Assembly: GCA_013297885.1 (NCBI GenBank)
Contig: JAAFIR010000003.1
Location: 124,001 to 188,000 of the forward strand
Direction: 5' to 3'
DNA: 64,000 bases
DNA from: Leptospirales bacterium
GTDB lineage: Bacteria; Spirochaetota; Leptospiria; Leptospirales; Leptospiraceae
The position numbers and the translations under genes are program-made. This document shows, piece after piece, positions 11,743 to 48,720 of this stretch (positions within the stretch are counted from its first letter, which is position 1; each line of letters opens with the position of its first letter). The notes beneath the pieces were generated by a model. The model worked only from the letters and a program-made list of their open reading frames with translations, did no database searches and was not told the DNA's origin.

Positions 11743-11835
11743 TTGGGGGATATTTGCTTCGCAAATCCGAGCTCTCAACTTCGGTCAAAAAATTTTATAA
11801 AAAATTTTTTGACCACGTTTCGATCTCTATCCCTT
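11743..11835 (-). repeat. Intergenic two-hairpin element, class A copy 1
   Basis: In minus orientation: GAGATCGAAACGT block, then a 14-bp perfect hairpin with a 4-nt loop (GGTCAAAAAATTTT at 11783-11796 against AAAATTTTTTGACC at 11801-11814), then GAAGTTGAGAGCTC, then a short hairpin ATTTGCttcGCAAAT (11752-11766) and a CCCCCAAA end. It separates two genes that would otherwise look overlapping. Confidence 0.78.
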
Positions 11836-11881
11836 TAGTGGAACTAAAATGCCACGTTTCTCAAAAGAGTATTTGCATTGG

Positions 11882-13880: not shown

Positions 13881-14030
13881 AAAATTTTCTTTTCTTAAAA
13901 AACTTCTCCGCATAGATGAATCTATCAGCATTTTATAACTTTTCTGTTTTGAGAAACTCTGTTGTATTGCAAAAAACCGAACAAAACAGGAACTCCTTTT
14001 CTTATTTAAAAAATTTGGAAAAACACAAAG

Positions 14031-14132
14031 CGTTAGTGATTGTAGCGGGGTCAAAATTTTTTCATTTAGCAGCAAATGCCCAACTAGCAAAGTCAAAGTG
14101 TGAAAAATTTTGACCAGAGCGAAAAGCACGAC
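14031..14132 (+). repeat. Intergenic two-hairpin element, class A copy 2
   Basis: CGTTAGTGATTGTAGCGG precedes arm GGTCAAAATTTTTTCA (14049-14064), which pairs with TGAAAAATTTTGACC (14101-14115, one bulged T). AGAGCGAAAAGCACGAC follows. The arm sequence is the GGTCAA type shared with the copies near 11.8, 16.8 and 20.2 kb. Confidence 0.78.
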
Positions 14133-14176
14133 TTTCATTTGCTATTCTTTTGTGATATTGTTATTTCATATATTCC

Positions 14177-16778: not shown

Positions 16779-16905
16779 TTTTTTTGGAGCGAAAATTTTT
16801 GATTTACTAGAAAAATATTAAAAATCGCACCAAAAAAAACAGGCTCTTGCTCTTGTCAAAAAATTTAATACAAAATTTTTTGACACCGCTTCGATCCTTT
16901 TCACT
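16779..16905 (-). repeat. Intergenic two-hairpin element, class A copy 3
   Basis: In minus orientation: GTGAAAAGGATCGAAGCGG, arm TGTCAAAAAATTT (its complement AAATTTTTTGACA is at 16873-16885, the other arm at 16854-16866), then AAGAGCAAGAGCCTG and a T8 run. A second imperfect AT-rich stem follows, bounded by GGTGCGA and TCGCTCC, and the element ends in CAAAAAAA. Confidence 0.78.
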
Positions 16906-16979
16906 TGTATTGCAAAATAATTTTTGCCAAATACTATTTTACAAGTTGTAGTGCTGATTTCAAAATTAAAAATTTATTA

Positions 16980-32805: not shown

Positions 32806-33387
32806 TAGATATTCAATTTAACAAAGTTTTATATTTTGGGAATCATAAAAATTAATTGAATGAATATTAAATAATTTTTTAAATTTGATATAATACTTTT
32901 TTTAAAAATAATTTATAAAGATTTGAATTTAGTATTCAATATTTTCAATTAAAATTTTCTTTTCTACATCGCTAAATCTAGAAGCTAATTTTAGTTTTCA
33001 TAATTTATTTTATCTATTTGAGCTAAATTAAATTCCACAACTAGTTAAAAAAGTTTCAAAATAATAATAATTATTTTTATTTGAAAAGTAATTTTTCCAA
33101 TGTTTTAAAATTAATTCATATTCATTTATTATTAATTATCATTCATTTTTTAAATGAGATTTTATAAATAGCTCTTAAAAATTTTAATTTCCCTATTTAA
33201 AACTCATGAATAATGTATAACTTATTTTAGAACTGCGTGTGAATAATAATCGATTCTTTGAGCAGTTCGATTGAGTATTAACATAAAAAAACTTTGTCAA
33301 TTTAAATATATCCAACTGGGGTATTTAAATCATTTATAAAAATTTTTATTTCTTTGTTAAAAAAACTAAGCTAATTTTCAAAACAGA

Positions 33388-33490
33388 ATGCGAAGGGATT
33401 AAAGCGTTTCCGAATGAATAGCCTCTAAATTTGTTGAAATGATTCAGAAGTTGCAAATTGGCTATTTAATTTGAATAGTAGCAAGGGTCA
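33388..33490 (+). repeat. Degenerate class A element (copy 7)
   Basis: GCGAAGGGATTAAAGCG is followed by TTTCCGAAT and ATAGCC, then ATTCAGAAGTTGCAAA. Order and sequence match copy 6 at 48.1 kb (GGGATTGAAGCG, TTTCTGAATAGCC, TATTCAGAAGTAGCAAA), but arms no longer pair along their full length, so this looks like a decaying copy. Confidence 0.6.
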
Positions 33491-38571: not shown

Positions 38572-38675
38572 TGGGCGAATTTTTGCTATTGCAAAAAACA
38601 CGCTCTCAGCTACTTCTTTAGACAGTGTGTTGCAACCCATTGTCTAAAGAACCGCTTCGATCGTTTTCGCTAGAA
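38572..38675 (-). repeat. Intergenic two-hairpin element, class A copy 5
   Basis: In minus orientation: TAGCGAAAACGATCGAAGCG, arm TTCTTTAGACA (38641-38651 complement, 38614-38624), GTAGCTGAGAGCGTG, then a 7-bp stem GCAAAAA/TTTTTGC (38580-38597) and end TTCGCCCAA. It begins about five bases after rpoD; on the plus strand its short stem could serve as the rpoD terminator although no T run follows. Confidence 0.8.
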
Positions 38676-45342: not shown

Positions 45343-46245
45343 TTATTTTTTGACATTGCCTTGAAAAGGAATATTTGTTTTTCCTTGAAAAACTTTTTTA
45401 TAATTGTACAATGTTTCATTTTGTTTATTACACCAAGCGAGTAAAAAACCATTTTCATCTTGAATCAAAAATTCTTTTGGAATTATGTCCAATTTAATCT
45501 GAGCACCGTTTAAAATTCTATCTCTTAAATTTGTCTTAATAATTGGAATGGGTAACATTTTTTCTAATTCAAAAAATTTATTTCGATTTTCTAAAATTTC
45601 TTCAATTGTAAATGAGTCTTCCAATTTAAAATTAGAAATTTTTGTCCTTTTTAAATTTTTTACATACATAGGAAAATTTAATTTTTCAGATAAATCCATA
45701 ACTAATTTTCGAATATAAGTTCCAGAGCTAACTTTTACTTTTAATTCAAAACCATGTTCAGTTAAATTTTCGAAATCCAATTCATAAATTTTTATATTCC
45801 TTTTTTTTTCTTCAAATGAAATATTTTGTCTAAACAATTCTGATTGTCTAACTCCACCAATTTTTAATGCAGAAACTTTTGGTGCAATTTGAATTTCAGT
45901 TTCTTGAATTTTTAAAATTTCAGTTTTGATTAATTCAAGATTGTCAAAATAAAATTGGTTTATTTTTTCTATATTCCATTCTGAGAGTACCGTTCCGTCT
46001 CTATCACCTGAGTCAGTTGATTTTCCAAATTCAACACTAGCGATATATTCTTTATCTGAATGTAAAAAAGTTTCTGAAAAAGCAGTAAATTCTCCAAAAG
46101 GTAAAATCATTAAACCATTTGCAAATTTATCTAATGTTCCTGTGTGACCAATTTTTTTTAAGTTTAATTTTTTCTTAAGTGTAATTACTAAATCAGATGA
46201 AGTAATATTTTCTTGTTTATTTATGAGGTAGAAGCCGGAAAGCAT
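45343..46245 (-). CDS. truB: tRNA pseudouridine(55) synthase
   Basis: 300 aa. TruB isomerises U55 in the T loop of tRNAs. The catalytic segment [20 protein letters not shown] near residue 34 contains the catalytic Asp40. [17 protein letters not shown] at the start, [16 protein letters not shown] and [17 protein letters not shown] near 175 are family features. The C-terminal PUA-like tail is short and divergent. In this order (rimP-nusA-infB-rbfA-truB-rpsO-pnp) truB would follow rbfA directly; here about 2 kb intervenes (46246-48300), so it now needs its own promoter. The start codon is ATG 46245. Confidence 0.95.
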
Positions 46246-46423
46246 TTCTAAAACTATGTTTTTTTTTAAATGACTAATGAATAATGAAAAATAGAAGATT
46301 AGAAATTTTATTTGAAAAATCTGAACTGATTAGTGTTCCTGTTCAGATTTAAGACAGTAAAAAAGTTAACACATATTCATATTCTCCTTGACTTATTTAT
46401 TCTAAATATATAAAGCTATAAAA
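46246..46423. promoter_or_regulatory. Divergent promoter region between truB and the repeat lipoprotein
   Basis: 178 bases that must now drive truB-rpsO-pnp leftward and the lipoprotein rightward. TTGACT at 46388-46393 with TATAAA at 46409-46414 (15-base spacing) is a possible rightward promoter, but it lies very close to the ATG at 46424. A 10-bp stem sits between. No strong ribosome-binding site precedes ATG 46424. Confidence 0.35.
46317..46350. repeat. 10-bp inverted repeat upstream of the truB start
   Basis: AAATCTGAAC (46317-46326) with GTTCAGATTT (46341-46350), 14-base loop. It could be a leader structure for truB or a remnant terminator from the original rbfA-truB junction. Confidence 0.45.
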
Positions 46424-47686
46424 ATGAAGTTAAATTTATTTTTGACTAAAAAAAAATTTCTTTTATTCTTTACAATAATTTTACAAATGAATTGTTTAAA
46501 AGCAAAAAAATCTATTTTTGATTTTAGTAACCCAACAACAGGTTCAACTGTATTGTCAAGGGTTGCTATAGCACGACTAGTTTTATCCTATTCAGGAAGT
46601 CCATTTGCGTTTACTCAAGGATTAGTAATCACAACAATCACTCCAACTCTCTCAGCAAGAGTGACGAGTTGCACATCAAACCCAGTTCTTCCTGCAGGAC
46701 TAAGCATCAATAATACAAACTGTGCTATTAGTGGAACTCCCACTATTCTGCAAACTGCAACCAATTATGTGGTAACTGCAAGTAATTCTTCTGGAAGCAC
46801 ACAAGCAAATATCAGCATTGCAATTGTATCTTCCAACGCCGGACAAACCTGGACGCAAAATACAATGCCGAGTTCCCGTACGTGGACTTCCGTTGCTTAT
46901 GGAAATGGAGTGTTTGTAGCGATTGCGCGAAATAGCAATGTTGCGGCTACTTCCCCCGATGGAGTCACCTGGACGCAAAGAACCCTACCAAGCACAGAAT
47001 CCTGGCAAGCAGTCACTTTCGGGAACGGTCTTTTTATCGCAGTGGTAGGGCTCTCTAGCAATGTAGCAGCCAGGTCACCTGATGGAGTCAACTGGACTCT
47101 AACAAATCTTTTGCCTAGCAATACAAACTGGACATCGGTGACATTTGGGAATGGGACCTATGTTGCCGTGGCGGGAGTCTCCACAAGCGCGGCTGCTTCT
47201 ACGAATGGGAACAACTGGACAGCTGGAATACTACCTAGTTCGCAAGGATGGAGCGTAACTTTTGGAAACGGTGTATTTGTAGCCGTAGCAACAGGACCAA
47301 GCAGTGCCGCGGCTACTTCGACCGATGGAGTTACATGGACTGCCCAAACCCTACCAAGTTCCCAAAACTGGACTTCCGTTGCCTATGGAAATGGAGTGTT
47401 TGTGGCGGTAGCTACAAATAGCAATGTAGCCGCCACTTCGCCTAATGGAGTCACTTGGACACAAAGGACTCGTTCCAGTGTTTCTGCATTGAATTTCGTC
47501 ACTTTTGGAAATGGAGTTTTTGTAGCGGTAGGTTCGACATCAAGTTCTGCCTTTTCCTCTGATGGAATTATATGGACATCTAGCACCCTACCAAGTAGTT
47601 CAGTCTGGTTTTCCGTTGCATTTGGCAATGGAGTTTTTGCGGCTGTTTCTGGTTCCCCAAGCACTATAGTCGCCACATCGCTTTGA
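46424..47686 (+). CDS. G+C-richer lipoprotein with Ig-like and propeller-like repeats
   Basis: 420 aa. Residues 1-25 are a lipoprotein signal (FFTIILQMNCLKAKK, Cys24). Residues about 50-135 read as a putative-Ig (He_PIG-like) domain: LPAGLSINNTNCAISGTPTI. Residues 140-420 contain about seven imperfect units of roughly 40 residues, each with a W-T-[SA]-V-[AT]-[YF]-G-N-G-V-F-V-A-V strand followed by SPDGVTWTQRTLPS-type sequence; this is the pattern of beta-propeller blades. From about 46530 onward the gene is plainly richer in G+C than anything else here (by eye near one half). The composition, together with the interruption of the truB-rbfA block, indicates recent acquisition. Surface-exposed location likely; partner unknown. 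Confidence 0.72.
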   Translation: MKLNLFLTKKKFLLFFTIILQMNCLKAKKSIFDFSNPTTGSTVLSRVAIARLVLSYSGSPFAFTQGLVITTITPTLSARVTSCTSNPVLPAGLSINNTNCAISGTPTILQTATNYVVTASNSSGSTQANISIAIVSSNAGQTWTQNTMPSSRTWTSVAYGNGVFVAIARNSNVAATSPDGVTWTQRTLPSTESWQAVTFGNGLFIAVVGLSSNVAARSPDGVNWTLTNLLPSNTNWTSVTFGNGTYVAVAGVSTSAAASTNGNNWTAGILPSSQGWSVTFGNGVFVAVATGPSSAAATSTDGVTWTAQTLPSSQNWTSVAYGNGVFVAVATNSNVAATSPNGVTWTQRTRSSVSALNFVTFGNGVFVAVGSTSSSAFSSDGIIWTSSTLPSSSVWFSVAFGNGVFAAVSGSPSTIVATSL

Positions 47687-48081
47687 AACTGATTTGTTAG
47701 TCGATACAAACGAACTGTGTTAGTAGTTGTTATTGGAAAAATATCTTTTAATAAACTAACTAATTCTGGTGAAAGGTTTGCATCAAATAATCTCAGAAAG
47801 AGAAATTGATTTTTCAGTAGTTGGAATTTGCAATTTTTCGTTAAGTGTAATATTTTTTTTAAATCGTATTTTCCATTTCTTGGATTTTGAAAAACTATGA
47901 TTTCTTTATTTTGTAAATCAAGAATCCAATATTCAAAAATATTTGCTTTTGCATAAATATTCGCTTTATATAAATCATCATCCAATGAACTAAATGTAAC
48001 TTCTACAACAAACTCTGCCGTAGTTGGATGTGAATCTCCAAAACCATCATAAGTTCCTTTATGAACTGAGTGTTTAATTTT
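47687..48081 (-). pseudogene. Truncated Uma2-family (PF05685) nuclease-fold gene remnant
   Basis: On the minus strand a frame is open from 48081 (just after a TAA at 48082-48084) down to the start of the lipoprotein's 3' end. It encodes HPTTAEFVVEVTFSSLDDDL then YKANIYAKANIFEYWILDLQ, the C-terminal half of Uma2/DUF820 proteins (E-V...S core strand and YWI-D motif). About 90 N-terminal residues that should precede it are absent, replaced by the stop. The frame then runs on into the antisense of the neighbouring gene, so the original 3' end may also be lost. Probably a non-functional relic of a PD-(D/E)XK-fold protein often associated with mobile regions. Confidence 0.7.
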
Positions 48082-48124
48082 TTAATAATAAAGTAAAATA
48101 TACTTCCTAAATGAAAAATGATTC

Positions 48125-48222
48125 GCGAAGCGAAACTGAACTAGGGAAAGGGATTGAAGCGTTTCTGAATAGCCTTGGTTTAACCCGAGGCTATTCAGAA
48201 GTAGCAAAAAGCCCGTTTTTTT
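48125..48222 (+). repeat. Intergenic two-hairpin element, class A copy 6
   Basis: GGGATTGAAGCG, then arm TTCTGAATAGCC (48163-48174) perfectly paired with GGCTATTCAGAA (48189-48200) and a loop with partial further pairing. GTAGCAAAAAGCCCG and a T8 run follow, so on the plus strand it would also be a good intrinsic terminator. Confidence 0.82.
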
Positions 48223-48300
48223 TCTAAATTGATTAAATCGAGATTTTCGACTAATTAGAATTAAGTGGATAAAAATTCCCAAAAAAAATTATTGTAGAGT

Positions 48301-48720
48301 TTATTCTTCAGTATCTGAATCAGTTTCGTTTTCAGATTCAGAATCTAATTTAGTTTCAGATTCTTTGGAATAATCTTTTGGTTTGGAACGATCTATCAAT
48401 TCATTTACACGAAGAGATTCAATATAATTTTCATCCCATAAAAAGAGGATACGAGGTGTTAAACGGATTTGCAGTTCTTTGCCAATAATCCGCTGAAAAA
48501 AACCTCTTGCGTTACGGAGAGCATTTAGTAATACTCTTTTTTCTTTTCCTTCAACATATGAAGTAACCCAAACTTTGACTCCTGTCATATCGTTTGCTAA
48601 ATCAGCTCGATGGACAGAAACAATTCCAATTCTTGGATCTTTTAATTTACCAGAAACAATAGCTCTTGCAATTGATTTAACAATCTCAGATTCTATTTTT
48701 CTCTTTCTGGTTTCATTCAT
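48301..48720 (-). CDS. rbfA: Ribosome-binding factor A
   Basis: 139 aa, KH-type fold assembly factor for the 30S subunit, needed for 16S maturation near helix 1. RKRKIESEIVKSIARAIVSG, LKDPRIGIVSVHRADLANDM, ALRNARGFFQRIIGKELQIR and LTPRILFLWDENYIE match the family. A Ser/Asp/Glu-rich C-terminal tail (residues 112-139) extends beyond the usual domain. The infB stop lies 4 bases upstream, so it is translated with infB. Its normal downstream neighbour truB is displaced by the inserted DNA. Confidence 0.95.
   Translation of the reverse strand: MNETRKRKIESEIVKSIARAIVSGKLKDPRIGIVSVHRADLANDMTGVKVWVTSYVEGKEKRVLLNALRNARGFFQRIIGKELQIRLTPRILFLWDENYIESLRVNELIDRSKPKDYSKESETKLDSESENETDSDTEE

Follow-up and report, generated by a model that had tools for sequence, protein, structure and literature searches.

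In Escherichia coli the genes metY, rimP, nusA, infB, rbfA and truB follow each other in this order, with rpsO and pnp lying downstream as separate operons that are partially reached by read-through from upstream (PMC6511841). In the window considered here, which is a stretch of 64,000 nucleotides on one of the 72 contigs of a 4.6-Mb Leptospiraceae genome, the minus strand carries rimP-nusA-infB-rbfA and truB-rpsO-pnp, the latter group being followed by a gene for an M16 peptidase and by dut. The two groups are separated by an insert at 46246-48300, between the rbfA stop (48301) and the truB start (46245). Its length is exactly 2055 bp, in agreement with the approximately 2 kb given in a preliminary description of this DNA, and all three parts listed there, namely a lipoprotein gene (hereafter LP), a truncated Uma2 relic and a class-A repeat, were found within it. 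The names rbfA and truB are backed by Pfam, infB and rpsO by recognition of their translations together with matches in relatives, and rimP, nusA, pnp, dut and the M16 peptidase by recognition of their translations. The features of the locus are as follows:

45343 to 46245, minus strand: truB, opening gene of the downstream half of the operon (Pfam TruB_N, 7e-37)
46246 to 46423, no strand: intergenic spacer from which LP and truB diverge, with a candidate truB promoter nearby
46424 to 47686, plus strand: LP, probable lipoprotein gene (Pfam He_PIG 2.5e-10 and EPTP 3e-8; repeat register; paralogues)
about 47786 to 48069, minus strand: Uma2 pseudogene (67% identity to the intact Uma2 of congener G002; Pfam Uma2 1e-6)
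48139 to 48223, plus strand: core of the class-A REP-like palindrome (covariance model R1, 88.9 bits)
48301 to 48720, minus strand: rbfA, which closes the upstream half of the operon (Pfam RBFA 4e-20; order rimP-nusA-infB-rbfA)

The nearest relatives compared are uncultured Leptospiraceae, including UBA2033. In all seven of the other family genomes, three of which are congeners, the two genes either overlap or lie directly end to end (gap between rbfA and truB of -8 to +2 nucleotides). The insert, when sought across the family, was missing from every one of the seven, and the earlier proposal of an insertion into a conserved junction is thereby borne out. Among 80 further loci, mostly from spirochaetes, the gap is at most 181 nucleotides nearly everywhere that both genes were detected, and reaches about 1 kb or more at three. 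In two of these three, both distant records, the intervening gene, named by eye, resembles nrnA (DHH). The third, the Treponema MAG Kf353_bin129 (L166:2591-3998), likewise has a broken rbfA-truB pair, with about 1.4 kb containing an opposite-strand AAA ATPase-like gene (named by eye); this gene is unrelated to the Leptospiraceae insert and apparently marks an independent event. In one order-level relative truB is relocated away from rbfA entirely. The tight junction of the relatives therefore indicates that the split, the insert of which is known from one genome only and which is compared with distant congeners (about 51% TruB identity), is derived and lineage-specific.

LP comprises 420 codons and starts with a signal-peptide/lipobox-like segment (..IILQMNC). 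Its product, a probable lipoprotein, combines an Ig-like domain (He_PIG) with seven repeats, each about 40 residues long, which might possibly form a seven-bladed beta-propeller; an AlphaFold2 model computed from the single sequence has a mean pLDDT of 35. Relatives of LP are numerous, with 35 partial or full matches in its own genome and 20 to 43 in the congeners, and the paralogues at C39, C19 and C47 of its own genome are 49-55% identical to it. None of the plasmid or phage records covers 80% of LP; partial matches on replicons are mainly to Thermus plasmids and, in the case of the Ig domain, to a Leptospira interrogans replicon. Two LP paralogues (L093:1269-4228 and L095:1234-4098) each lie downstream of a near-identical pair of nucleotidyltransferase-like and HEPN-like genes, probably a toxin-antitoxin system, in an arrangement that looks like a duplicated block.

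Members of the Uma2 family (PF05685) are predicted PD-(D/E)XK nucleases that are rarely paired with antitoxins (PMC2701414). The copy in the insert differs from the family in being truncated and frameshifted: it corresponds to residues 90-184 of a 184-residue Uma2, lacks residues 1-89 and hence the N-terminal half, in which the EPD motif lies, and has a frameshift near 47842-47872. It offers neither the full-length ORF nor both halves of the nuclease core that mark an intact Uma2. The identity to the G002 copy holds over the main segment, and Uma2 is present in multiple copies in the source genome and its congeners.

The class-A palindrome has at least 147 copies in the source genome, as recovered with a covariance model built from 29 of them; the number is a lower bound, since the scoring covers 150 candidates. 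The same model yields 2 to 5 weak matches in each congener, and no match in those order-level genomes to which it was applied, which is consistent with a REP-like family private to the source lineage and fits a later colonization of the insert. Compensatory changes were seen in 11 of its 23 pairs (GGG/CCC, GTG/CAC, GAG/CTC, CCG/CGG), and on either strand it folds much more stably than shuffled sequences (z of about -5). The six confident sites in the window (48139-48223, 38591-38675, 11760-11838, 16832-16909, 14025-14138 and 33385-33472) amount to a density of about 1 per 10 kb; five are clear of ORFs of at least 80 aa and the sixth overlaps a putative 111-codon ORF. The repeat is thus a short, high-copy and mostly extragenic palindrome, as expected of REP elements, and an Rfam scan near the insert returned no match at the gathering threshold. 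On the plus strand the copy in the insert ends in a T8 run and could terminate transcription arriving from the LP side. As it is the only copy in the insert, we do not favor it as a recombination site for entry. After many class-A copies comes a stretch of variable sequence that ends in an A-run and TTCGCCC, which suggests a two-hairpin unit with variable cargo. REP and REPIN elements are mobilized by RAYT (Y1) transposases. The genome contains one Y1_Tnp (RAYT-type) gene (C42:66004; L100:2912-3334, G000:C42), which is followed by palindromes of the form CAGTGGGTC...GACCCACTG that differ from class-A; a palindrome resembling CAGTGGGTC...GACCCACTG is also nested beside some class-A copies (L005, L007, L064, L068).

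The insert was initially described as foreign-looking, with a G+C-richer lipoprotein gene. Over its full length LP indeed has a GC3 of 0.30, where its amino acid composition predicts 0.12; the excess is about 8 times the standard deviation of host ORFs (0.023). Such a bias would be accounted for if LP, with or without Uma2, had been acquired horizontally, by recombination, from a leptospire richer in G+C. The best partial identity of LP (61%) is to a gene of a congener, and its GC3 excess is the greatest among the paralogues measured, leaving room for a recent transfer from a G+C-richer relative. However, three paralogues at unrelated loci of the same genome also lie above their GC3 expectation (0.17, 0.18 and 0.27), and the LP genes of the congeners are G+C-raised relative to their own flanks. 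Furthermore, the excess is restricted to the body of LP: its opening 40 codons are host-like, and this contrast between an AT-rich leader and a G+C-rich body recurs in the C19 paralogue; the composition of the Uma2 relic (0.27, against 0.28 for the window) is host-like too. The occurrence of the bias in resident paralogues and congener copies alike indicates that it belongs to the gene family and is not a property of the insertion. Hence, the description as G+C-richer applies to the LP body, but not to its leader or the Uma2 relic, and that of a foreign-looking insert is not supported, given the G+C-raised resident paralogues, a relic of host composition and a genome-specific repeat family. 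As the evidence argues only weakly for a foreign origin of the insert, we regard horizontal transfer as unlikely; in these genomes a G+C excess in repeat-rich surface-protein genes is characteristic of the family and does not on its own point to a foreign origin.

The presence of a decayed gene and of accessory cargo precisely between two genes could also mark the relic of a transposon, an integrative element or an integron cassette that lost its recombinase and its ends. The rbfA-side end of the insert matches the stop-start overlap of the three congeners at 12/14, 11/14 and 9/14 positions (the fraction of comparable sites as good being 0.012, 0.096 and 0.46, respectively), whereas the truB-side end matches at 8/14 in each of the three; the weak 12/14 match hints at a remnant of the ancestral overlap beside rbfA, and is at most suggestive of an ancestral target sequence. 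Against such a relic, and as the preliminary description had already observed, no transposase, integrase or recombinase ORF is detectable in 46246-48300, where Pfam scores only the LP and Uma2 domains. At the ends of the insert there are no terminal inverted repeats beyond short AT-rich chance pairs, and a search there for direct repeats gave only short AT-rich matches and no convincing target duplication. The class-A repeat, with its one copy in the insert, is scattered throughout the genome in both orientations and is not arrayed. An origin as a mobile-element relic accordingly seems to us decidedly doubtful, although the insertion may be old and, because the congeners are so distant, its original ends, even those of a mobile element, could have been erased. 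That the split is ancestral, or an artefact of assembly, might be entertained for a single draft genome of one strain, but is very improbable given the contiguous junction in the family and at most spirochaete loci. In addition, truB is present in one copy in the source genome and the insert holds a repeat family of that same genome, which makes a chimeric contig unlikely.

Taken together, these lines of evidence lead us to favor, with moderate confidence, a derived and lineage-specific insertion of resident-type accessory DNA at the rbfA/truB junction, probably by illegitimate recombination. A chromosomal fragment carrying an LP-family gene and a Uma2 gene would have been captured at the boundary where rbfA stops and truB starts, and illegitimate, recombinase-independent capture is the most likely mode of entry. 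The boundary would have tolerated this because no coding sequence was interrupted. Subsequently, in what we infer to be the order of events, the Uma2 gene would have decayed and the genome-specific REP-like palindrome settled beside rbfA.

Under the favored scenario of resident-DNA capture, truB, once stop-start coupled to rbfA, would now begin at an ATG of its own. In the congeners (L010, L011 and L012, near position 1495) the interval from the upstream in-frame stop to the truB homology contains no ATG, GTG or TTG. The sole start that seems plausible there is an ATT that overlaps the stop codon of rbfA (ATTAA), so that these genes appear to combine an unusual initiation codon with stop-start coupling; in L011 this ATT is preceded, at a distance of two codons, by an in-frame TGA. 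At the codon that is ATT in all three congeners the window truB has ATG and, judging from these sequences, its coupling to rbfA is lost. The transcriptional link to rbfA has probably been lost as well, leaving truB in need of its own promoter; its transcription may rely on read-through or on a putative new promoter in the truB-LP intergenic region. The candidate TTAACT-17-TATATT (46433-46405, minus strand) is no better than chance, with 12 promoter-like sites found against 13.4 expected from shuffles. The fold of the truB leader has a z of -0.3 relative to shuffles, and the leader hairpin alone a z of -1.7. Upstream of truB, at 46366-46389 on the minus strand, we also noted an SD-like AAGGAG, a four-codon ORF encoding MNMC (46380-46366) and a hairpin, which may be chance occurrences in AT-rich DNA. 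Thus, the earlier suggestion that the insertion obliges truB, rpsO and pnp alike to use a new promoter is overstated: it holds at most for truB, whereas rpsO and pnp need not depend on one, given that they constitute separate operons in E. coli (PMC6511841). One might further imagine a regulatory partition, in which the palindrome shields rbfA from transcription of LP while truB-rpsO-pnp is governed by its own leader with the SD-like site, MNMC and the hairpin. If true, translation-factor and RNA-decay genes would be controlled separately, but we consider such a partition highly improbable.

The case is one of ordinary operon erosion by accessory genes. It illustrates that accessory genes can split a ribosome-biogenesis operon, however highly conserved, even at a stop-start-coupled junction with both halves kept, and that the accessory DNA that breaks an operon can be resident material. 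The class-A repeat is reminiscent of REP/REPIN elements in being short, very high in copy number and genome-specific, with its structure preserved by compensatory change; the lone Y1_Tnp gene adjoins another palindrome. As regards an integron cassette, for which attC-type sites in tandem and an integron integrase would be expected, the repeat is dispersed in both orientations and no integrase is found within the insert. As for the operon itself, the genes flanking the insert and their order are identical to those of E. coli, metY aside; in contrast to E. coli, however, 2055 bp of accessory DNA with an opposite-strand gene separate rbfA from truB.
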